From Haloferax gibbonsii ATCC 33959 (GTDB taxonomy: Archaea > Halobacteriota > Halobacteria > Halobacteriales > Haloferacaceae): DNA of 64,000 bases. Made by a program: the position numbers and the translations under genes. The DNA lies in assembly GCF_000336775.1 (NCBI RefSeq), contig NZ_AOLJ01000019.1, forward strand, positions 104,836 to 168,835, given 5' to 3'. Below, piece by piece: positions 1-42,268 of this stretch (the first letter of the stretch is position 1; each line of letters opens with the position of its first letter). The notes below the pieces were generated by a model. That model was not told the DNA's origin and did not search any database. It saw only the letters and a program-made list of their open reading frames with translations.

Positions 1-72
1 AGCCTAGGCCGGGATTTGAACCCGGGCTCTCGTCCTTACCAAGGACGCGCTTTACCGCTAAGCTACCCAGGC
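1..72 (-). tRNA. tRNA-Thr (anticodon GGT)
   Basis: Read on the minus strand this folds as a full cloverleaf. Acceptor GCCTGGG pairs with CCTAGGC with one G-U pair, anticodon stem CGTCC/GGACG closes loop TTGGTAA (anticodon GGT), and the T arm is CCGGG-TTCAAAT-CCCGG. The discriminator base is U and no CCA is encoded. No intron is seen. A CCTAAA promoter-like box lies about 30 nt upstream (101-106). Confidence 0.97.
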
Positions 73-150
73 AGGCATTCCTTGGTTGTCCGGGTTACTC
101 TTTAGGGGTTTCGATTCGAACCGACCCGGAACCGTGGTAGCGTATGTCGA

Positions 151-828
151 TTAGCGGTCCGCCGCGGAGGTGACCGCGTCGTCGCCACCGCCGCCCTGAT
201 AGAGGGCCGCGATGCGCTCGACGGTCCCCTCGGAGACGGTCTCGTCGGCCGGGGGGAAATCGCCGTCGTGGGTGTCGGCCAGTCCGGCGGCGTACTCCAC
301 GAGGGCGGTCGGCGGGGCCGAGCCGACGGCCGTGGTGCCGGCGACGACGGCGAGCGTGCAGATGTTCACTTCGAGTTCGCCGTCGAGGTCCGGGCGTGCC
401 GCTTCGTCTGCCGAGCGGCGGCGAGTCTGGTCGCGGCCGAAGGCGCGGACCGTCTCGACGGCGTGGTCGGCGGCCTCGGTTCGGGCGAGGAGGTAGAAGC
501 CGCGCGAGACGAGCACGTCCGCCGCGAGGATGTCGAGGTCCGCGTCGGTGTCCTCCTCGGGGCTATCGAGATGCGTCCACGGCTCGTCGTGGGCGAGCGA
601 CCGGGTGAGCCGGAGGCCCTCGTAGATGAGTTGCACTCCGGCCGCGCGGGAGGCCATCCCGTTCAGGTCGACCTTCGGTTCGACGGCCCGCGCGCTCACG
701 AACGTGAGCACTGCCGGCGTCAGGGAGGCGGCGTCGAGGCGTTCGTCCAGCGCCGCACGGAGGGCCTCGGGCTCGATATCGGAGAGGGCCTCGCGCGCGG
801 CCTCGCGGGCTCGCACGGCGTCGTCCAT
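151..828 (-). CDS. Haloarchaeal hypothetical protein, possibly isoprenoid-synthase-like helical fold
   Basis: This is a 225-aa, mostly helical, acidic soluble protein with no signal peptide or membrane segment. The ATG at 828 is chosen because coding character starts there, 60 nt from the divergent crotonase gene. Two central stretches resemble parts of trans-polyprenyl diphosphate synthases: one around 'GVQLIYEGLRLTR', and 'DILAADVLVSRGFYLLA', which recalls the 'AGDYLLARAFELLA' helix. I see no DDxxD metal-binding motif, so the similarity may be structural only. The gene lies downstream of, and antiparallel to, nothing it obviously cooperates with; tRNA-Thr follows it. Conserved haloarchaeal protein of unknown function; the fold comparison is inference. 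Confidence 0.85.
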   Translation of the reverse strand: MDDAVRAREAAREALSDIEPEALRAALDERLDAASLTPAVLTFVSARAVEPKVDLNGMASRAAGVQLIYEGLRLTRSLAHDEPWTHLDSPEEDTDADLDILAADVLVSRGFYLLARTEAADHAVETVRAFGRDQTRRRSADEAARPDLDGELEVNICTLAVVAGTTAVGSAPPTALVEYAAGLADTHDGDFPPADETVSEGTVERIAALYQGGGGDDAVTSAADR

Positions 829-888
829 CGGCCGAGACTTACGGTTGGGAGGGCAAAGACCTTTGGAAAACCACGGCACAACGGGCGT

Positions 889-1584
889 ATGATACGGACG
901 ACGGACGACGGCGACCTCCGGGTCGTGACCATCGACCGCCCGGCGCGACGGAACGCGCTCAGACCGACCGACCTCGACGCCCTCGAAGCCGCGGTCGTCG
1001 AGGCCGACGCGCCGGTGGTCCTCCTCCGGGGGAACGGCCCGGCGTTCTGCGCCGGCGCGGACCTCGACAGCGTCGCCGACCTCGACGATCCGGAAGCGTT
1101 CGCAAAACACGGCCAGCGCGTCGCCGACGCCATCGAAGCCGCCGAATCGGTCGTCGTCGCCGGCATCGACGGAGCGGCCCGCGGCGGCGGCGTCGAACTC
1201 GCGCTCGCCTGCGACGTGCGGGTGGCCACCCCGCGGGCGACCCTCGGCGAACCGGGCGTCCGACTCGGCCTGTTCGGCGCGTGGGGCGGGACCGTCCGCC
1301 TCCCGCGCGTCGTCGGCGAGGGTCACGCCCTCGAATTCTCGCTTTCGGGCCGCGTCGTCGACGCCGACGAGGCGCTCCGGATGGGCCTCGTCTCCCGAAT
1401 CGTCGACGACCCGCGCGCGGTCGCGGCCTCGATGGCCGACAACGACCACCGGTCGCTCCGAATCATCAAGGAGCGACTGCGCGACCGCGACGGGCGGGAA
1501 GCGCGACTCGAACGGGAAGCCGCCGGCTTCGCCGAACTTCATCGGGCGAACGTCGACGACATCGCGGCGTCGCGCGAAAAGTGA
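889..1584 (+). CDS. Enoyl-CoA hydratase/isomerase (crotonase) family protein
   Basis: A 231-aa crotonase-fold protein, shorter than the usual 250-260 aa. Oxyanion-hole motifs are visible: 'GNGPAFCAGADL' (49-59) and 'ARGGGVELALACDV' (97-110). The first catalytic Glu of classical hydratases is kept as Glu103 in GGGVEL. The second, in the usual 'PEIxLG' motif, is replaced: here the motif is 'EPGVRLG' with Gly123. Loss of that Glu argues against a standard hydratase and suggests an isomerase, hydrolase or other acyl-CoA activity. The ATG at 889 is divergent from the upstream hypothetical gene. No beta-oxidation partners are nearby. Confidence 0.93.
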   Translation: MIRTTDDGDLRVVTIDRPARRNALRPTDLDALEAAVVEADAPVVLLRGNGPAFCAGADLDSVADLDDPEAFAKHGQRVADAIEAAESVVVAGIDGAARGGGVELALACDVRVATPRATLGEPGVRLGLFGAWGGTVRLPRVVGEGHALEFSLSGRVVDADEALRMGLVSRIVDDPRAVAASMADNDHRSLRIIKERLRDRDGREARLEREAAGFAELHRANVDDIAASREK

Positions 1585-1614
1585 GTGCTGCGAACGGAGC
1601 GGTTCGACGGCTGG

Positions 1615-2445
1615 TTACACGTCCAGCGCCGACGGCGCGGGGGGCATCGACCGCTTGTGGGCGCTGCCCGCGACGAGGCCGACCACGCGGTCGACCTGTT
1701 CTTCGGTCACGCCGAGGTGGCGGACCGTCGCGGACTTCGAGAGCGGGCCGTCCACGTGGAGCGCGAGAATCGCGTCGAGCGCGTCGTAGGTGAGCCCCAG
1801 TTCGCCCTCGTCGGTCTGGCCGGACCACATCTCGGCCGAGGGGGTCTGTAACACGAGTTCTTCCGGCACGCCGACGTGGGCGGCCAGCTGGCGGACCTGC
1901 TGTTTGTAGAGGTTCCCGATGGGGTTGCAGTCGACCGCCTGGTCGCCGTACTTCGTGAAGTAGCCGGTCATCGCCTCGGCGCGGTTGCCCGTCCCGAGCA
2001 CGATGCGGTTCTCGTGGTTGGCGACGAAGTAGTTGAGCACCGCCCGCGTGCGGACGTAGACGTTCCCGGCGGCCATGCGGTCGTCGGCCGCCTCGGGGAA
2101 CGTGTCGAAGAACGTCTCGGCGATGGGCTGAATCTCGACCACGTCGTACTCGATTCCCAGCATCTCGGCGACCCCCTCGGCGTCGCTCATCATGTCCTCG
2201 GCGTTCGCCACGCTCGGCATGACGAGCCCGTGGAGGTTCTCCTCCCCGAGCGCCTCGACGGCGAGGAAGGCGGTGAGCGTCGAGTCAATCCCCCCGGAGA
2301 GGCCGAGGACGGCCCCGTCGGCTCCGGCGGCTTCGACGGTGTCTTCGATGAAGGTCGTGATGTGTTCGCGATGCGCTTCGAGTTCCGCTTCGGAGAACAG
2401 GAGGTCGAACGGGGCGTCCTCCGAGAGAACGTCGACGGATGTCAT
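1615..2445 (-). CDS. nadE: NH3-dependent NAD(+) synthetase
   Basis: Catalyses the last step of NAD synthesis, amidating nicotinate adenine dinucleotide with ATP. The 276-aa protein carries the PP-loop 'GLSGGIDST' (48-56) and a 'GTGNRAEAMTGYFTKYGD' block typical of the NadE core, and lacks the N-terminal glutaminase domain, so it should use free ammonia. The ATG at 2445 is preferred over an in-frame upstream ATG at 2487 because the extra residues (TRDYLGPRFQPAP) are not family-like and overlap the putative promoter. It converges with the crotonase gene across a 30-nt gap. Nicotinate phosphoribosyltransferase and a nicotinamidase-like gene elsewhere in the window supply earlier salvage steps. 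Confidence 0.97.
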   Translation of the reverse strand: MTSVDVLSEDAPFDLLFSEAELEAHREHITTFIEDTVEAAGADGAVLGLSGGIDSTLTAFLAVEALGEENLHGLVMPSVANAEDMMSDAEGVAEMLGIEYDVVEIQPIAETFFDTFPEAADDRMAAGNVYVRTRAVLNYFVANHENRIVLGTGNRAEAMTGYFTKYGDQAVDCNPIGNLYKQQVRQLAAHVGVPEELVLQTPSAEMWSGQTDEGELGLTYDALDAILALHVDGPLSKSATVRHLGVTEEQVDRVVGLVAGSAHKRSMPPAPSALDV

Positions 2446-2603
2446 GGGCGCCGGTTGGAACCGGGGGCCCAAATAGTCACGTGTCACGCGAAAACAATGG
2501 ACGGCCGTCCAGTTTTCGCGGGGGTTCGATGGGGTGAAGCGCTACGTTCAAGTGCCCCCGCGGTCTACGGATTTTTGCTTCGGAACGCGGTTCGAAGCGC
2601 AGC

Positions 2604-2768
2604 GCGCCGATGTGTTGTCGAACGAAGTGAGACAACGCGCGGGGCGAACGAATGTGAGCGCCGATGGGTGACTGAACGAAGTGAAGTCAGCCACGGGGTG
2701 AATGCAATGAGCGCCGATGGTCGACCGAGCGGAGCGAGGTCGAGTCAGGGGCGCAAGCAAAGCGTAGC
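2604..2768 (+). repeat. Three divergent 53-58 bp repeats upstream of tRNA-Gly
   Basis: Three head-to-tail units begin at 2604, 2658 and 2711, and the tRNA gene at 2769 starts as a fourth. Each begins with the tRNA 5' end GCGCCGATG. Each then carries a hairpin with an 11-nt loop: GTTGTC/GACAAC (2614-2636), TGACT/AGTCA (2669-2689), TCGACC/GGTCGA (2721-2743). Loops are GAACGAAGTGA twice and GAGCGGAGCGA once. Stem sequences differ but remain paired. Each unit ends with a related GGGGYGMAxGMAA-type tail. No convincing protein is encoded. Function unknown. Confidence 0.85.
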
Positions 2769-2839
2769 GCGCCGATGGTCCAGTGGTAGGACACGAGCTT
2801 CCCAAGCTCGGAGCCCGGGTTCAATTCCCGGTCGGCGCA
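2769..2839 (+). tRNA. tRNA-Gly (anticodon CCC)
   Basis: Acceptor GCGCCGA pairs with TCGGCGC (2832-2838), discriminator A at 2839. The anticodon stem CGAGC/GCTCG closes loop TTCCCAA (anticodon CCC), and the T arm is CCGGG-TTCAATT-CCCGG. No CCA and no intron. The gene sits inside an array of partial copies of its own ends (see flanking repeats), the usual footprint of integrative elements using a tRNA gene as attachment site. Confidence 0.97.
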
Positions 2840-2946
2840 TCTTCTGAACGGAGCCAGACGAGGAGCCGAGAGGCTCCGAGTCCATGGAGTGAAGAGATGC
2901 GACCTGAGGGAATTGAAGCAGCGAGCAACGCGAAGCGTTGCGAGTG

Positions 2947-2969
2947 GGGTTCAATTCCCGGTCGGCGCA
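2947..2969 (+). repeat. 23-bp copy of the tRNA-Gly 3' end (attachment-site-like)
   Basis: Positions 2947-2969 repeat exactly the tRNA-Gly 3' segment at 2817-2839, that is the T-loop strand through the discriminator base. A shorter degenerate copy, ACTCCCGGTCGGCG, is at 3121-3134. The 107 bp between the tRNA and the copy contain two hairpins, GGAGCC-GAGA-GGCTCC (2862-2877) and GCAACGC-GAA-GCGTTGC (2925-2941). No integrase gene is present, so if this is an att scar the element is gone. Confidence 0.8.
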
Positions 2970-3126
2970 CTTCCGGTGAGACGCTGTCTCACCGACGTAC
3001 CGCTCGTTTCACTCGCGGTACTCCCTTCGGTCGTTTGCCGACCGACCTTCGCAAACCTTCGGTTTGCTCAGTTCTGGCGAGATGCTATCTCGCCAACGTG
3101 CCGCTCGTTTCACTCGCGGCACTCCC
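2970..3126 (+). repeat. Pair of 56-bp double-hairpin units with covarying stems
   Basis: Unit 1 is 2970-3025 and unit 2 is 3071-3126, exactly 101 bp apart. Each holds hairpin A, then hairpin B with a constant 11-nt loop TCGTTTCACTC. Hairpin A is GGTGAGAC-GCT-GTCTCACC (2975-2993) in unit 1 and GGCGAGAT-GCT-ATCTCGCC (3076-3094) in unit 2. Hairpin B has stem GTACCGC/GCGGTAC (2997-3021) or GTGCCGC/GCGGCAC (3098-3122). Every stem difference is matched by its partner. The spacer adds two more hairpins (around 3028-3044 and 3053-3069). Confidence 0.88.
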
Positions 3127-3172
3127 GGTCGGCGTACAGCCGGCTTTATTGACAGTTGTCCGAACGGGGCAT

Positions 3173-3367
3173 ATGGACACCGAGACGTCCCTCCTGTCGA
3201 TTCGGCGGTGGCTGATGGTCCTCTCGCTGTTGCTCACGGTCCAAGTGTACGCCAGCGTCACCGACACCGGCGCACTCGACGCCCCCGGCCAGCCAGTGAG
3301 ACTCGCACTGATAGGTGCGGGAGTCTACGTCGTCATCGCGTTGCTTCTCACCTTCTTCGAAGAATAG
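3173..3367 (+). CDS. Small membrane protein, 64 aa
   Basis: A 64-aa protein with two predicted membrane segments, about residues 12-30 ('WLMVLSLLLTVQVYASV') and 43-60 ('LALIGAGVYVVIALLLTFF'), and an acidic C-terminus. The start at ATG 3173 is supported by a CTTTATT box at 3144-3150, about 26 nt upstream, which would give a leaderless transcript. I do not recognise the family and cannot assign a function. It lies immediately after the tRNA-Gly hairpin array and faces a small acidic gene on the other strand. Confidence 0.8.
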   Translation: MDTETSLLSIRRWLMVLSLLLTVQVYASVTDTGALDAPGQPVRLALIGAGVYVVIALLLTFFEE

Positions 3368-3381
3368 CACGCGTCACCGAC

Positions 3382-3561
3382 TCAGAAAAACAGGTTCTGC
3401 ACGTCGTCGAGCTCCGGCGATTCGGAGCGAAACACCGGCTCGCGGGCGGTCTGCCGAAGCATCGCGTGGCGTTCGAGGGCCGAGTCGAATTCGAGAATCG
3501 CCCGCTCGATATCGCGGGCCAGCGCGTCGATTTCGCCGTGGAGTTCGTCGTCGTCGGCCAT
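3382..3561 (-). CDS. Small acidic coiled-coil protein, 59 aa
   Basis: A 59-aa acidic, helical protein with a heptad-like stretch 'EIDALARDIERAILEFDSAL' (about 9-28). It has no Cys, signal peptide or membrane segment. The ATG at 3561 is chosen over an upstream in-frame start at 3615 because the extra residues are basic and unlike the rest. It ends 14 nt from the convergent small membrane-protein gene. Function unknown. Confidence 0.7.
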   Translation of the reverse strand: MADDDELHGEIDALARDIERAILEFDSALERHAMLRQTAREPVFRSESPELDDVQNLFF

Positions 3562-3611
3562 GATACGCGTAGTTAGTCGAGGGCTGGTAAAACGGGCTCG
3601 GCCGCGAGTCG

Positions 3612-3908
3612 TCACCGGAGCCGTCGGGTGCAGTTCCAGCAGAGGTCGAAGGTGGTGTCGGCCTCGTTTTCGACCCCGCAGTTCGGGCAGATGCGCTCGC
3701 CCGTCGGCGTCGTCTGCACGCCGGCCTGCGAGCCGTCGTCGAACGACGCCGCGATTTCGGGGTGGGCGTAGCGGTCCGTCCGGGCGGAGTCCCGACCGGT
3801 CCCCTCGCCCATCGTCGGCTCACCGCCGTTGACGAGGTACCGATAGACCAGGAGCTGGAGCAGGGTCAACCCGAGGGCGTAGACGACGATCCAACCCCAG
3901 ATGTCCAT
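3612..3908 (-). CDS. Membrane-anchored zinc-ribbon protein
   Basis: This 98-aa protein has one N-terminal membrane helix ('WIVVYALGLTLLQLLVYRYLV', about 6-26), a polar linker, and a C-terminal zinc ribbon made of 'CPNCG' and, 15 residues on, 'CWNC'. The four cysteines should bind one Zn. Such anchored ribbons are common and uncharacterised in haloarchaea. The ATG at 3908 is preferred over the GTG immediately before it. It precedes the small acidic gene at 3382-3561 on the same strand with a 50-nt gap, so the two may be cotranscribed. Confidence 0.82.
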   Translation of the reverse strand: MDIWGWIVVYALGLTLLQLLVYRYLVNGGEPTMGEGTGRDSARTDRYAHPEIAASFDDGSQAGVQTTPTGERICPNCGVENEADTTFDLCWNCTRRLR

Positions 3909-4024
3909 CACACATTGACTTACGTTAGCATGCTATATCGGTTCTTCGGTCGAACGGGTCTGCTGACGCTCTCGACGGTGGTCGCGGGCGATGCCGGCGC
4001 GGCGGTCTGGCACCGAAAAGGGAG

Positions 4025-4942
4025 TTACTCGCGTCGGTGGGAATTCACCGGTCCGTCGAGTTCGCGGTCGAACTCGTCGAAGGCGTCGAGGTCGTCGGGG
4101 AGCTCGTAAGGAATCTCGCGCTCGTCGGCGCGGCGCTCGCCGCCGGCGTCGAGCGGTTCGGCCGCGTCCTCGAAGCCGGGCTTTACTTTCACGCTCTTGG
4201 CGGGCGAGCCGACAGCGATGTGGTGGGCGGGCACGTCGCCCTGCACGACCGACCGGGCCCCGACGATGGCGTTCTCGCCGACCGAAACGCCGGCGTTCAC
4301 CATCGCGTCGTAGGTGATGCGCGCGTCGTCGCCGACGGTCGTGTGGTAGTTTCTGACCTCGGTCTGGTCGACGGTGTCGTGGGAGTGGCTGTAGATGTGG
4401 GCGCTGTCGGAGATGGAGACGCGGTCGCCGATGGTGAGTTTCCCGCGGTCGTCGAGGTGCACGTCGTCGTGGATGACCGTGTTGTCGCCGACGGAGATGT
4501 TGTGGCCGTACGAGAAGGTGACGCCCTTGAAGATGCGGAGGTTGTCCCCGGCCTCCTCGAAGAGGTGGTTGGCGAGCATCTGTCGGAACCGGAGGGCGAA
4601 CGCGACGTTGTCGGCCATCGGCGTCGCGTCGAACTGCCGCCAGAGCCACTGGAGATGCTTCGAGCGCTTGAACTTCTCGTCGTCCTTCTCGGCGTAGTAC
4701 TCGGCTTCGAGCGTCGCGTTGCAGGGGTCGTACCCCTGCAGTCGGACCCGCGTCGCGGGCGAGACGGGCTTGCCGTTCTGCCAGCGCTCCCACGCCTCGC
4801 GGTCGCCGAACAGGTCGATGAGGGTGTCCCGAACGACCGTGCAGGTGTCTTCGTCCGAGGCCAGACGAGCGTCGACCTCGTCGATAAACGCCTGTAAGCC
4901 GTCTTCGGCGTCTTCCGGAAGCGAAACGCGGACCTTTGTCAT
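4025..4942 (-). CDS. Left-handed beta-helix (hexapeptide) acyltransferase
   Basis: A 305-aa protein. The N-terminal ~110 residues are helical and include a CopG/plasmid-stability-like opening ('KVRVSLPEDAEDGLQAFID'). Residues ~135-235 contain the hexapeptide repeats of a left-handed beta-helix: 'GHNISVGDNTVIHDDVHL', 'IGDRVSISDSAHIYSHSHDT', 'VGENAIVGARSVVQGDVPAH'. The His-rich turn and the 'AVGSPAKSVKVK' ending are typical of maltose/galactoside/xenobiotic O-acetyltransferases. The C-terminal 60 residues are an acidic tail. The acceptor cannot be told from sequence; neighbours give no clue. Cytoplasmic, probably trimeric by family. Confidence 0.88.
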   Translation of the reverse strand: MTKVRVSLPEDAEDGLQAFIDEVDARLASDEDTCTVVRDTLIDLFGDREAWERWQNGKPVSPATRVRLQGYDPCNATLEAEYYAEKDDEKFKRSKHLQWLWRQFDATPMADNVAFALRFRQMLANHLFEEAGDNLRIFKGVTFSYGHNISVGDNTVIHDDVHLDDRGKLTIGDRVSISDSAHIYSHSHDTVDQTEVRNYHTTVGDDARITYDAMVNAGVSVGENAIVGARSVVQGDVPAHHIAVGSPAKSVKVKPGFEDAAEPLDAGGERRADEREIPYELPDDLDAFDEFDRELDGPVNSHRRE

Positions 4943-5170
4943 TGCACCGTCGTAAGCCGTCGAGATTCAAAGGGATTCGGTTGTGCGAACCGCGCGTCAG
5001 GCCTCCTCCGGGCAATATTAGCTGGTTTCGGGGGTCGGGCGCGTGTCTGATGGAACAAGTTCGACCCGTCGCTAGCGCCGAACGGAACCCGAAACGGACC
5101 GAGTGGGGTGTCTCTCCGATGGGTGATACGAATGGTGAAACCTATCACAGTCGCCCGAGTTTACACGATA

Positions 5171-6460
5171 ATGAGTGAAAAATTCAGAGAAGGGATTCCG
5201 GCGTGGACGCGGGAACACGCCGCTGGCCTCCGCCGCGACGACTCGAACGTCGCGCCGGTCATCTATCCCCCGGACGAGCGACTTGACGACGACCTGCACA
5301 TCTGGGACACGTGGTTCCTCCGGAACCGCGACGGCTCCGTCGCCGAAATCGACGGCTATCGCGTCATCTTCTCGCTGACGTCGTCGTCGGACCTCCTCCC
5401 CGGCAAGCGCCACGACGTGGCGACGATTCGCTACTTCTACTCCCGAGACGGCGAGGAGTGGACCACCGGCGGCGTCGTCTTCGACGGCGGCGCGCTCGGC
5501 CAGCGTCAGTGGGCCGGGTCGGCGATGTACGACCCGGACGGCGACGGCGACGACGTCTATCTCTACTACACCGCGGCCGGAGAGGACGGCGCCGAGGAGC
5601 TGACCTACACCCAGCGCATCGCAGTCGCCACCGGGGGGACCGTCCGCACCGACGACGCCGGATTCAGCATCGAGGGGTCGTGGAACCACCGAATCATCCT
5701 CACGCCGGACGGCGACTGGTACGAGCGCGAGGACCAGTCGCGCGGGATGATATACACCTTCCGCGACCCGTGGTTCTTCGAGGACCCCGCGTCGGGCGAG
5801 ACGTACCTCCTCTTCGAGGCGAACACGCCCGTCCCCGAGGGGACCGGCGAGTGCGACGACCCCGTCTGGGAGGAGTTCAACGGGAGCGTCGGCATCGCCC
5901 ACTCGCCGACCGGCGACCCGACCGACTTCGAACTCCGGCCGCCGCTTCTCGACGCCGTCTGCGTCAATCAGGAACTGGAGCGCCCGCACCTCGTCGTCCG
6001 CGACGGGACGTACCACCTGTTCGTCTCCAGCCACGTCCACACGTTCGCGCCCGGCCTGACGGGCTACGATGCCCTCTACGGGTTCGTCGCCGACGACCTC
6101 GCGGGCGACTACGAACCCCTGAACGGCCACGGGATGGTTCTCACGAACCCGAAAGGCGCGCCCTTCCAGGCGTACTCGTGGCTCGTCTACGACCACGGCG
6201 ACGACCTCCTCGTCTCGTCGTTCTTCAACTACTTCGACTACGACCGACCGAGCCTCGACGACGTGGGACTCCTCCCGCCCGAAGAACAGCAGCGCCGCTT
6301 CGGCGGCACGCTCGCGCCGACCGTCCGGGTCGCTCTCGACGGCGACGAGACCGACCTCGTCGACACCCTCGGCCACGGACACCTGCCGCTGCCGCGCGAG
6401 GAACTGCCGACGCCGTGGTGGGAGCGAGACGGGGACGCCACCCGCGGCGGCGACTACTGA
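5171..6460 (+). CDS. GH68 family transfructosylase (levansucrase/inulosucrase/invertase)
   Basis: A 429-aa glycoside hydrolase family 68 enzyme acting on sucrose. Catalytic motifs are all present: nucleophile Asp46 in 'IWDTWFL', 'WAGS' (114-117), transition-state stabiliser Asp199 in 'FRDPWFF', and acid/base Glu270 in 'QELERPH'. No Sec or Tat signal peptide is visible, so the protein looks cytoplasmic, unlike bacterial levansucrases. Whether it mainly transfers or hydrolyses fructose cannot be decided. The ATG at 5171 directly follows a TTTACACGATA stretch. It converges with the GH32 gene with a 13-nt gap, and the pair forms a sucrose/fructan locus. Confidence 0.93.
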   Translation: MSEKFREGIPAWTREHAAGLRRDDSNVAPVIYPPDERLDDDLHIWDTWFLRNRDGSVAEIDGYRVIFSLTSSSDLLPGKRHDVATIRYFYSRDGEEWTTGGVVFDGGALGQRQWAGSAMYDPDGDGDDVYLYYTAAGEDGAEELTYTQRIAVATGGTVRTDDAGFSIEGSWNHRIILTPDGDWYEREDQSRGMIYTFRDPWFFEDPASGETYLLFEANTPVPEGTGECDDPVWEEFNGSVGIAHSPTGDPTDFELRPPLLDAVCVNQELERPHLVVRDGTYHLFVSSHVHTFAPGLTGYDALYGFVADDLAGDYEPLNGHGMVLTNPKGAPFQAYSWLVYDHGDDLLVSSFFNYFDYDRPSLDDVGLLPPEEQQRRFGGTLAPTVRVALDGDETDLVDTLGHGHLPLPREELPTPWWERDGDATRGGDY

Positions 6461-6473
6461 ACGAACGCGGCGG

Positions 6474-8669
<2,196 letters not shown>

Positions 8670-8824
8670 TCACCGTGCATGAATCTGCGGATTCACTCGG
8701 TAGCGAGCAAATACACACAGCGCCCGGAGCCGAGCGCGGGCCGCGAGCGCCGCTCACGCCGGGGATTCCCACGAGACGGAAACAAAACACACCCAATAAG
8801 TCGCCCCAATTCGTAGGGCCGGCC

Positions 8825-9898
8825 ATGCACTACCGCGAACTCGGCACCTCCGGAATCGAAGTCAGCGAGGTCGGCTTCGGTGCGTGGGTCGTCGGGACCG
8901 ACTGGTGGGGCGACCGCTCGGACGAAGACTCCATCGAGATGCTCCACCACGCCATCGACCGGGGTATCGACTTCTTCGACACGGGTGACGTGTACGGCCA
9001 CGGCCACTCCGAGGAGGTCGTCGGCGAGGCCCTCGCCGACTACCGCGACGAGGTCACCGTCGCCACCAAAATCGGCTACGACTTCTACAACAACCCGCAG
9101 GCCGGCCACGGCGAACTCCCCAAGGAGATAACCGGCGAGTGGGTCCGCGAGGCGACCGAAAAGAGCCTCGAACGCCTCGACATGGAGTACGTGGACCTCC
9201 TGCAACTCCACAACGCGAACGTCGACGAGGTCACGCCCGACGTGCTCGAAGCCCTCGACGAACTGAAAGAGGAGGGCCTCATCAAGGCCACCGGCTGGGC
9301 GCTCGGCCCCTCCATCGGCTGGCTGGCCGAAGGCGACATGGCCATCGAAGAGGAGTTCGACGCGCTCCAAATCGTCTGGAACGCCTTCGAACAGGACGTG
9401 GGCAACCACTTCCTCGACACCATCCGCGAGACCGGTTCCTCGACGAGCCTCATCGCCCGCGTGCCGCACTCCTCGGGCCTCCTGAACGAGCAGGTCCGCC
9501 CCGAGACCGAACTCGGCTCCGGCGACCACCGCGGCTTCCGCCCCGACGAGTGGTACGAGACGGGCTGGGAGAAGCTCGAACAACTCCGCTTCCTCGAACG
9601 CGACGGCGAGCGCACCATGGCACAGGCGTCCATCGCCTACCTCCTCGGCTACGACGAGACCGCGGCCGTCACGCCGACGTTCCGCACGAAAGACGACATC
9701 GACGAGTGGGCGAAGGCCTCCGACGTGCCGAAGCTCACCGACGAGGAGCTAACCCGCGTCGAGGACCTGTACGCGGACAACTTCGGCATCGACCGCTTCG
9801 ATGGCATGGACGCGCTCCGCTCGTCGGTCGACGGCGACGACATCCGCGCGGCCGGCCTCGACAAGCGCGTCGCGAAGGGCGCGCGCAACGAAGCCTGA
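8825..9898 (+). CDS. Aldo/keto reductase
   Basis: A 357-aa NAD(P)H-dependent TIM-barrel oxidoreductase. 'GFGAWVVG' and 'FFDTGDVYGHGHSEEVVGEAL' supply the catalytic Asp and Tyr, 'VATKIGYDFY' holds the Lys, and 'LLQLHNA' the His-containing strand. The C-terminal 'IDRFDGMDALRSS' region is the usual cofactor-side tail. The substrate is not evident. The ATG at 8825 is chosen because the upstream in-frame extension lies in the divergent promoter region and is not protein-like. Its stop overlaps the next gene's ATG (TGATG), so the two are translationally coupled. Next to the fructan locus, a role with sugars is possible but not shown. Confidence 0.93.
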   Translation: MHYRELGTSGIEVSEVGFGAWVVGTDWWGDRSDEDSIEMLHHAIDRGIDFFDTGDVYGHGHSEEVVGEALADYRDEVTVATKIGYDFYNNPQAGHGELPKEITGEWVREATEKSLERLDMEYVDLLQLHNANVDEVTPDVLEALDELKEEGLIKATGWALGPSIGWLAEGDMAIEEEFDALQIVWNAFEQDVGNHFLDTIRETGSSTSLIARVPHSSGLLNEQVRPETELGSGDHRGFRPDEWYETGWEKLEQLRFLERDGERTMAQASIAYLLGYDETAAVTPTFRTKDDIDEWAKASDVPKLTDEELTRVEDLYADNFGIDRFDGMDALRSSVDGDDIRAAGLDKRVAKGARNEA

Positions 9899-41347: not shown

Positions 41348-42268
41348 GTGAGCCGTCACCGGACCCTCGTCCTCTTCGTCGCGGCCGCGGTGCTGTTCGG
41401 CACCTCCTTCGTCGGCATCAAGGCCGCCATCGGCTCGGTCCCGCCGGTGCTCTTTGCGGCCTTCCGCGTCGACGTCGCCGCCGTCGTCCTCCTGACGCTC
41501 GTCGCCGTCCGCGGCGGCTACTGGCTCCCGCGGACCCGCGCGGACGCGCTCGGCATCCTCGCCAGCGCCGCGTTCGTCCTCGGAGCGAACAACGTGTTCC
41601 TCTTCCTCGGCCAGCAGCACGCGACGACGGGCGCGGCCGCCGTCATGTACAGCATCATGCCCGTGGCCTCCCCGGTGTTCGCCGTCTTGCTCCTCGACGA
41701 CGCGCGCATCTCCGCGGTCGACGCCGCCGGCATCCTGCTCGGACTCGTCGGCGTCGTCGTCATCGTCGGCCCCGAGAGCGTCCTCGGCGGCGGGAGCGTC
41801 GGACAGGCGCTCATCGTCTGTTCGGCGCTGTCGGTCGCCTTCGGGACTGTGCTGCTCAAGCGCGTTGGCCCCTCTATCGGAACGCTCCCGCAGACCGCGT
41901 GGGCGATGGCGGCCGCCGCCGTCGGCATCCACGCCGCCAGCCTCGGTCTCGGCGAATCAATCGCGCAGGTCGCGTGGTCGCCGGAACTCGTCGCCGCGAT
42001 TCTCTACGTCGGCATGCCCGCGACCGCCGCGGCCTACCCGGTCTACTTCGCGCTCCTCGCGGAGGCCGGCCCGGTCCGCGGCAACCTCGTCGCCTACGCG
42101 ATGCCTGTCGTCGCCACCGTCACCGGCTGGGCGTTCCTCGGTGAGTCCGTCTCGCCGGCGACCGTCCTCGGCTTCGGGGTCATCCTCTCGGGGTTCATCT
42201 TGGTCCAGCGCGACAGCGTGGCCCGGGTGGTCGGCCTGCGGGGAAGCGTCCCCGCGGAAGCTGAATAA
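41348..42268 (+). CDS. EamA/DMT-superfamily transporter
   Basis: A 306-aa, ten-helix EamA protein from GTG 41348, where conserved residues begin ('RHRTLVLFVAAAVLFGTSFV'). An in-frame ATG at 41231 would add 39 polar residues not seen in the family. Two duplicated halves are clear; 'GIKAAIGSVPPVLFAAFRVD' is the first-half opening signature and 'ATAAAYPVYFALLAEAGPV' the second-half motif. Probably exports amino acids or small metabolites. A second, related transporter follows on the opposite strand with a 44-nt gap. Confidence 0.88.
   Translation: MSRHRTLVLFVAAAVLFGTSFVGIKAAIGSVPPVLFAAFRVDVAAVVLLTLVAVRGGYWLPRTRADALGILASAAFVLGANNVFLFLGQQHATTGAAAVMYSIMPVASPVFAVLLLDDARISAVDAAGILLGLVGVVVIVGPESVLGGGSVGQALIVCSALSVAFGTVLLKRVGPSIGTLPQTAWAMAAAAVGIHAASLGLGESIAQVAWSPELVAAILYVGMPATAAAYPVYFALLAEAGPVRGNLVAYAMPVVATVTGWAFLGESVSPATVLGFGVILSGFILVQRDSVARVVGLRGSVPAEAE

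Follow-up and report, generated by a model that had tools for sequence, protein, structure and literature searches.

The two double-hairpin units at positions 2970-3126 of the window (the whole 64,000-nucleotide stretch of Haloferax gibbonsii ATCC 33959 analysed here) are best explained as copies of one small non-coding palindromic cassette, which combines a hairpin carrying a GNA-type tip with a companion hairpin. On the same explanation the cassettes form a haloarchaeal family that stands in tandem beside tRNA genes and is bounded by the ends of the very tRNA that it flanks. Our preferred reading, to which we assign a probability of roughly 55%, is that these are palindromic cassettes acting at the DNA level, with arms made and corrected by template switching and with growth and shrinkage via the tRNA-end repeats. 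The tips obey a common rule, the boundary copies match the local tRNA, the units covary by Watson-Crick exchanges only, and the arrays vary among species; the tips also occur in frame in the protein gene birA, where their arms are complementary to host codons.

The units and their array

The initial annotation had placed two collinear double-hairpin units here, and sequence reading together with self-comparison upheld their positions and their start-to-start distance of 101 bp; unit 1 and unit 2 share 82% identity over 67 nt. Their B loops are identical and the differing stem positions do change in both arms, as had been reported: 4 of the 16 stem pairs differ, with pairing kept in 4 of 4. The A stems were correctly described except for their length, which is one pair greater than had been given (9 bp, as against 7 bp in hairpin B), and this additional pair also differs on both sides between the units (C-G to T-A). 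None of 200 dinucleotide shuffles folded as well as the stretch itself: z is -8.8 when the plus strand is treated as DNA and -9.0 when the minus strand is treated as RNA. A fold z near -9, together with the tip-rule controls given below, rules out chance palindromes. The att-like tRNA copy that had been noted beside the units was also confirmed, positions 2947-2969 being an exact repeat of 2817-2839, and with it the link between the units and a tRNA-end copy. The array comprises the following features.

2604-2657, plus strand: upstream cassette 1, beginning with the tRNA 5'-end copy GCGCCGATG; GNA-tip hairpin with tip GAACGAAGTGA at 2620-2630 and a 6-bp stem; companion hairpin-like GAACGAATGTGA
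2658-2710, plus strand: upstream cassette 2, beginning with GCGCCGATGG; tip GAACGAAGTGA at 2674-2684 with a 5-bp stem; second tip GAATGCAATGA at 2700-2710, without a perfect stem
2711-2768, plus strand: upstream cassette 3, beginning with GCGCCGATGG; tip GAGCGGAGCGA at 2727-2737 with a 6-bp stem
2769-2839, plus strand: tRNA-Gly (CCC), the anchor of the array
2840-2969, plus strand: downstream cassette, with inverted T-arm GGGAATTGAA (2908-2917), inner hairpin GCAACGC-GAA-GCGTTGC (2925-2941) and direct T-arm TTCAATTCCC (2950-2959); ends with a 23-nt tRNA 3'-end copy (2947-2969)
2971-3025, plus strand: unit 1, composed of A1 (2974-2994) and B1 (2997-3021), the GNA-type tip lying on the minus strand
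Hairpin A1: CGGTGAGAC (2974-2982) and GTCTCACCG (2986-2994), loop GCT
Hairpin B1: GTACCGC (2997-3003) and GCGGTAC (3015-3021), loop TCGTTTCACTC
3027-3067, plus strand: hairpin pair between the units, TCGGTCG-TTTGC-CGACCGA (3027-3045) and GCAAACC-TTC-GGTTTGC (3051-3067), both perfect
3072-3126, plus strand: unit 2, composed of A2 (3075-3095) and B2 (3098-3122)
Hairpin A2: TGGCGAGAT (3075-3083) and ATCTCGCCA (3087-3095), loop GCT
Hairpin B2: GTGCCGC (3098-3104) and GCGGCAC (3116-3122), loop TCGTTTCACTC, identical to that of B1
3123-3136, plus strand: last, shorter tRNA 3'-end copy, TCCCGGTCGGCGTA, the right edge of the array

The tRNA-Gly 3' end, comprising T-stem, acceptor strand and discriminator base, is copied at the close of the downstream cassettes, and upstream cassettes open with the 5' end of this tRNA, GCGCCGATG(G). 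When loci of named Haloferax species were located by way of the NAD synthase gene close by (Pfam PF02540), the array was seen to range from 0 to 545 bp among 11 species, with 1 to 4 tails downstream in 10 of the 11 loci, 1 to 3 five-prime copies upstream in 8 of 11, and cassette types that differ between loci in set and order. The H. mucosum locus has neither downstream tails nor upstream five-prime copies. At the H. massiliensis locus (L037) the right flank of the window array directly adjoins an earlier tail, and the 2970-3136 block is thus present or absent between tails.

At window positions 1-72 with the stretch just before (L110), and at L104, L136 and L137, identical tRNA copies stand in tandem with an N between them. 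Some of these are likely assembly-gap repeats, and the tRNA counts of the window's assembly may be inflated.

A common tip geometry

The minus-strand B loop, GAGTGAAACGA, and the upstream loops GAACGAAGTGA, GAGCGGAGCGA and GAATGCAATGA all fit the scheme GA-RY-GNA-RY'-GA, in which RY is complementary to RY'. The scheme yields a loop of three bases (GNA) on two base pairs and a GA/GA step, the last of which could, we presume, form sheared pairs. A resemblance of the B loop to the complement of an upstream loop had been pointed out from the sequence, and it holds: the minus-strand B loop follows the same scheme as the plus-strand GAACGAAGTGA and GAGCGGAGCGA. At least 5 of the 6 flanking bases were paired in 52 of 126 unique rule-obeying sites, homologous sites of related species being counted separately, against 11/680, 1/60 and 7/64 in the control classes. 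For the window's genome alone, 15 of 54 tip sites were paired outside the tip compared with 6 of 472 controls (Fisher p = 7e-12). The pair that closes the tip outside GA was C-G in 83 of 105 paired sites.

Three-base loops led the paired counts (73/637, against 17/244 for four-base and 6/223 for five-base loops), and GNA made up 52 of the 73. This lead agrees better with the known GNA mini-hairpin of DNA than with the GNRA tetraloop of RNA. When RY is GC, the RY-GNA-RY core of the tip is the d(GCGNAGC) DNA mini-hairpin itself; the tips described here differ from it in carrying GA/GA and a variable stem on the outside and in forming a genomic family. Mismatches on the GNA strand of a wider tip set (14 G.T versus 18 A.C) were neutral and point neither way.

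A 400-kb stretch taken without selection held 17 complementary sites, of which 4 had a stem of at least 3 pairs; three of these four lay at most 110 bp from a tRNA and the other one 22 kb away. At L254:1075-1110 (contig C11 of the window's genome, G000, about 530880) a perfect tip hairpin with a 7-bp stem stands alone, 22 kb from any tRNA; a T run follows it, and it could be a terminator. Perfect hairpins numbered 3.5 per kb in the downstream flanks of tRNAs, compared with 2.4 in the upstream flanks and 2.0 in C11:200001-400000; density by itself constitutes weak evidence.

Tips within birA and in a dispersed repeat

Four tips on contig C15 of the window's genome lie in the biotin-protein ligase gene birA (PF03099, PF02237), in an array at L253:1088-1320 (G000:C15, about 41387-41620; orthologues L273-L292). 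In this gene, the one in which in-frame coding insertion was examined, an open insert, 69-279 bp long, separates KWPND from a GILTE-like motif in 15 of 15 Haloferax genomes, 12 of which have in-frame tips. The inserts contain 32 complementary tip sites, 24 of them with at least 5 paired bases. The first arm consists of the host codons GTTATCGT or their synonymous forms GTGATTGT and GTCATCGT, and the second arm follows them: among the first hairpins whose tip is located 8 nt after KWPND (n = 11), seven are paired with the host codons at 8 of 8 positions and the other four deviate by T.G only, which amounts to 5 T.G and 0 A.C on the coding strand. Some inserts begin again with host sequence (L278, L279). 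Hairpins in birA cannot serve tRNA maturation.

The same tip occurs in a dispersed repeat of another genus (genome G086, L255-L272), where the tip word was detected in 17 of 18 stretches and a shared 20-mer, GGCTGGGGAGGCGTGAGGTG, in 16 of 18, with a tRNA in only 1 of 18.

Covariation without wobble

Covariation was tested across 14 homologous Haloferax units, and it is real: 96.4% of 252 cells are paired, 34 cells hold double changes, and 11 of the 18 pairs have double changes, compared with at most 2 pairs in slid controls. None of 500 shuffles scored as high on four of the five measures, and 458 of 500 did so on the fifth, the number of further pair types. The units showed no one-sided change, with 0 G.U and 4 A.C on the plus strand (equal to G.U on the minus strand). 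Hairpins formed with the T-arm (n = 84) had 808 Watson-Crick, 2 G.U, 4 A.C and 4 other pairs, whereas the 155 tRNA acceptor stems used as a control had 1000 Watson-Crick, 51 G.U, 2 A.C and 32 other pairs (G.U:A.C, Fisher p = 0.0005). Both the unit finder and the helix finder penalised G.U and A.C alike as mismatches. As G.U is absent from the units and scarce in the T-arm hairpins, the usual RNA intermediate is missing while double changes are common.

Template switching during DNA replication can make and repair perfect stems in one step, and loop inversion is one of its described footprints (both from the available text of PMC8794818). The same stem with the same flanks, AGCGA-GCAAATC, carries the loop GAA at one locus and its inverse, TTC, at another, a pair that looks like such an inversion. 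The initial annotation took compensatory change between duplicates as direct evidence that the fold is selected. This does not follow, given exchanges that run from Watson-Crick to Watson-Crick only, template switching as an alternative source, and tips inside birA.

A structured RNA, in which the hairpins would belong to a pre-tRNA trailer or leader or to a separate small RNA and pairing would be under RNA selection, could account for the strong fold, for the covariation across homologues, for a core conserved between genera and for the birA deviations, all T.G. It would also suit the strand bias of the tip: of 85 paired sites, 68 have it on the tRNA-sense strand (28/28 upstream, 40/57 downstream, orthologues counted repeatedly). 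This bias could otherwise reflect a displaced non-template strand at highly transcribed genes. We nevertheless consider such an RNA unlikely: wobble pairs are lacking in the 14 units and stand at 2 G.U to 4 A.C in the T-arm hairpins against 51 to 2 in the acceptor stems, the B tips are antisense to the tRNA, and the same tips lie inside a protein-coding gene. Rfam gave no match in the window outside the tRNAs and RNase P and none over cassettes in five test loci. Of the two possibilities left side by side by the initial annotation, a structured RNA or a substrate for recombination or a mobile element, the second fits better and the first is not supported.

tRNA-end copies across haloarchaea

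Similar copies were sought at other tRNA genes using 13-mers of each tRNA's own 3' end with one mismatch allowed in the 400 bp downstream, tRNA genes masked. They were present downstream of 83 of 173 sampled haloarchaeal tRNA records, including 27/52 records with at least one copy in the window's genome, where the 40 copies counted include a few tails beside an N (L104, L107, L110). Three other haloarchaea gave 8/20, 9/21 and 13/23 records and the sets of NAD-synthase loci 11/23, 4/14 and 11/20; one genome from elsewhere in the phylum gave 0 of 25. Control tails of a different isotype averaged at most 0.17 per set (maximum 1). The word CGAACGAAGTGAG was found in 22 of the 24 genomes that belong to the window's order and in 22 of the phylum's 124 others, its reversed control in 0/24 and 4/124. 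Among the genomes compared, arrays of this density were seen in haloarchaea only.

The copies match the local tRNA and keep to their side of it. Own-tail copies numbered 123 versus 4 that matched the tail of another tRNA; one of these four adjoins a neighbouring tRNA-Met and is at most the only real foreign tail, the other three looking like chance words. Own 5' ends were copied 18 times upstream, and the wrong side held 1 three-prime copy upstream and 0 five-prime copies downstream, one exception in 142 copies. Just before 81 of the 123 tail copies an inverted own T-arm (at least 9 nt in 57) forms a hairpin around a small core. The inverted arm does not single out its own tRNA, because T-loops are alike (own arm better than those of other tRNAs in 10, tied in 40 and worse in 73 of 123). 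The longest own-T-arm match was uninformative as a test of local arms for the same reason, and the acceptor-specific tail took its place.

The same core types appear beside tRNAs of different isotypes, and cores from different isotypes are slightly more alike within than between genomes (0.62 vs 0.56; 0 of 1000 permutations). One inner core is recognisable across several genera. The core CCTGG-AAGTCGC...GAGCA..GTCTTCC recurs downstream of tRNAs across haloarchaeal genera (L215, L220, L173, L199, L210 and others), with a covarying outer stem (GGAAG/CTTCC, CCAG/CTGG, ATCAG/CTGAT) and no Rfam match. By-eye inspection of conserved core II against known RNAs and the kink-turn gave no fit.

Exact boundaries at tRNA 3' ends, tandem arrays, species-specific cassette sets and the restriction to own tails would be consistent with integrative cassettes of miniature size, present as small circles or as folded single strands with the tRNA 3' end as attP, moved by the tRNA-targeting tyrosine integrases of haloarchaeal viruses or plasmids, their hairpins being binding or folding signals as in integrons. 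The 13-bp att of the haloarchaeal SNJ2, as given in the available part of PMC8371274, is comparable with the matches of about 13-24 nt of many tails here. However, upstream cassettes bounded by the tRNA 5' end would be unexpected, the birA copies lie away from any tRNA, and the cassettes measure only about 65-150 bp, a spacing between tRNA-end copies (window, L034-L044) that leaves no room for an integrase gene or element, of which there is none between them. Nor was an integrase noticed beside the array among the ORFs of window positions 1-9000 and in Pfam searches of three window proteins. Integration of this kind appears improbable.

Ordinary non-autonomous transposable repeats (MITE, REP, SMR or RPE-like) with a preference for tRNA flanks and target duplication on insertion could draw on the dispersed repeat of G086, on cores more alike within genomes, on the transposase-free small mobile repeats reported for Haloquadratum (PMC3119063, in the text available) and on in-frame gene insertions that recall Rickettsia palindromic elements (available text of PMC10969869), but they are very unlikely here, as the cassettes have no fixed terminal (inverted) repeat, their arms vary with host sequence, and 5'-end copies upstream with 3'-end copies downstream (one exception in 142) are not predicted by simple target duplication.

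A proposed template-switching mechanism

The reading that we prefer, of DNA cassettes shaped by template switching, would operate as follows. In exposed single-stranded DNA the tip GA-RY-GNA-RY'-GA would fold back on itself, its 3' end would snap back and copy neighbouring host sequence into the second arm, and copying from the fold or from the opposite arm would correct mismatches in both arms together. With the tRNA ends repeated, cassettes could then be gained, lost and shuffled by homologous recombination. We infer snap-back copying, single-stranded DNA as the active form and no dedicated enzyme.

Several observations weigh against this reading. The GA/GA mismatches in the tip persist, and since plain copying would erase them, something preserves the tip; the GA/GA step may be needed for the fold that primes copying. 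The tRNA-sense bias of the tip would suit an RNA as well. The T.G-only deviations in birA are the pattern expected if folding of the coding strand mattered, and an inner core shared across genera needs either selection or real mobility. A bolder proposal, which we hold tentatively and consider somewhat doubtful, is a self-propagating, enzyme-free repeat, whose tip primes the copying of its neighbour into its own arms and which has spread beside haloarchaeal tRNA genes and into birA. If this is true, such repeats would constitute a class set apart by the geometry of their tip, not by sequence, and their perfect covariation would be a product of mutation.

Relation to known elements

There are separate precedents for palindromic repeats, for att duplications and for template-switch palindromes. 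Like the cassettes, Rickettsia palindromic elements are small palindromic repeats, some of them in frame in protein genes (PMC10969869, available text), as birA is here. However, they form families of about 150 bp in unrelated genes with a conserved encoded peptide, whereas the units here are about 45-66 bp, are concentrated at tRNA genes and have arms that follow host sequence; only the tip and some cores were shared between unrelated loci, with no conserved element of about 100-150 bp of the Rickettsia kind. Template-switch (quasipalindrome) mutations likewise make or mend perfect stems at a single stroke and leave double changes and loop inversions (PMC8794818, as far as its available text describes them), but as scattered single events, unlike a conserved tip at many loci over a whole archaeal order.

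Copies of tRNA 3' ends downstream of the gene are also left as attL/attR duplications by tRNA-targeting tyrosine integrases (available passages of PMC8371274 and PMC3119063). The Haloquadratum example GI3 spans about 53 kb and includes an integrase (PMC3119063, in part), in contrast to the spacing of about 65-150 bp and the upstream 5'-end copies found here. The SMRs and PATEs of Haloquadratum share with the cassettes that they are short, transposase-free, palindrome-bearing haloarchaeal repeats, and the mobilisation of SMRs has been called enigmatic; SMRs differ in their fixed terminal repeats, identity commonly above 95% and use of other mobile elements as targets, features that the cassettes are without (all from the available text of PMC3119063). 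No description of the cassette family was found in the literature searched, a search that most subscription journals fall outside; what appears to be new is a family whose defining trait is the geometry of the tip, whose arms are templated by the host and whose anchors are tRNA ends.

Implications

Stem covariation is usually taken as the proof of a functional RNA. In this family, which flanks about half of the sampled haloarchaeal tRNA records, it is abundant, yet wobble pairs are lacking and the stems track the adjoining DNA, even in a protein gene. The family would provide a test bed for asking whether template switching can imitate RNA selection, and it calls for care when RNAs are sought by covariation. 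For the haloarchaea themselves, a well-studied archaeal group, this flanking structure of tRNA genes is quickly gained and lost from one species to the next; it could account for local instability and provide sites where mobile elements land.
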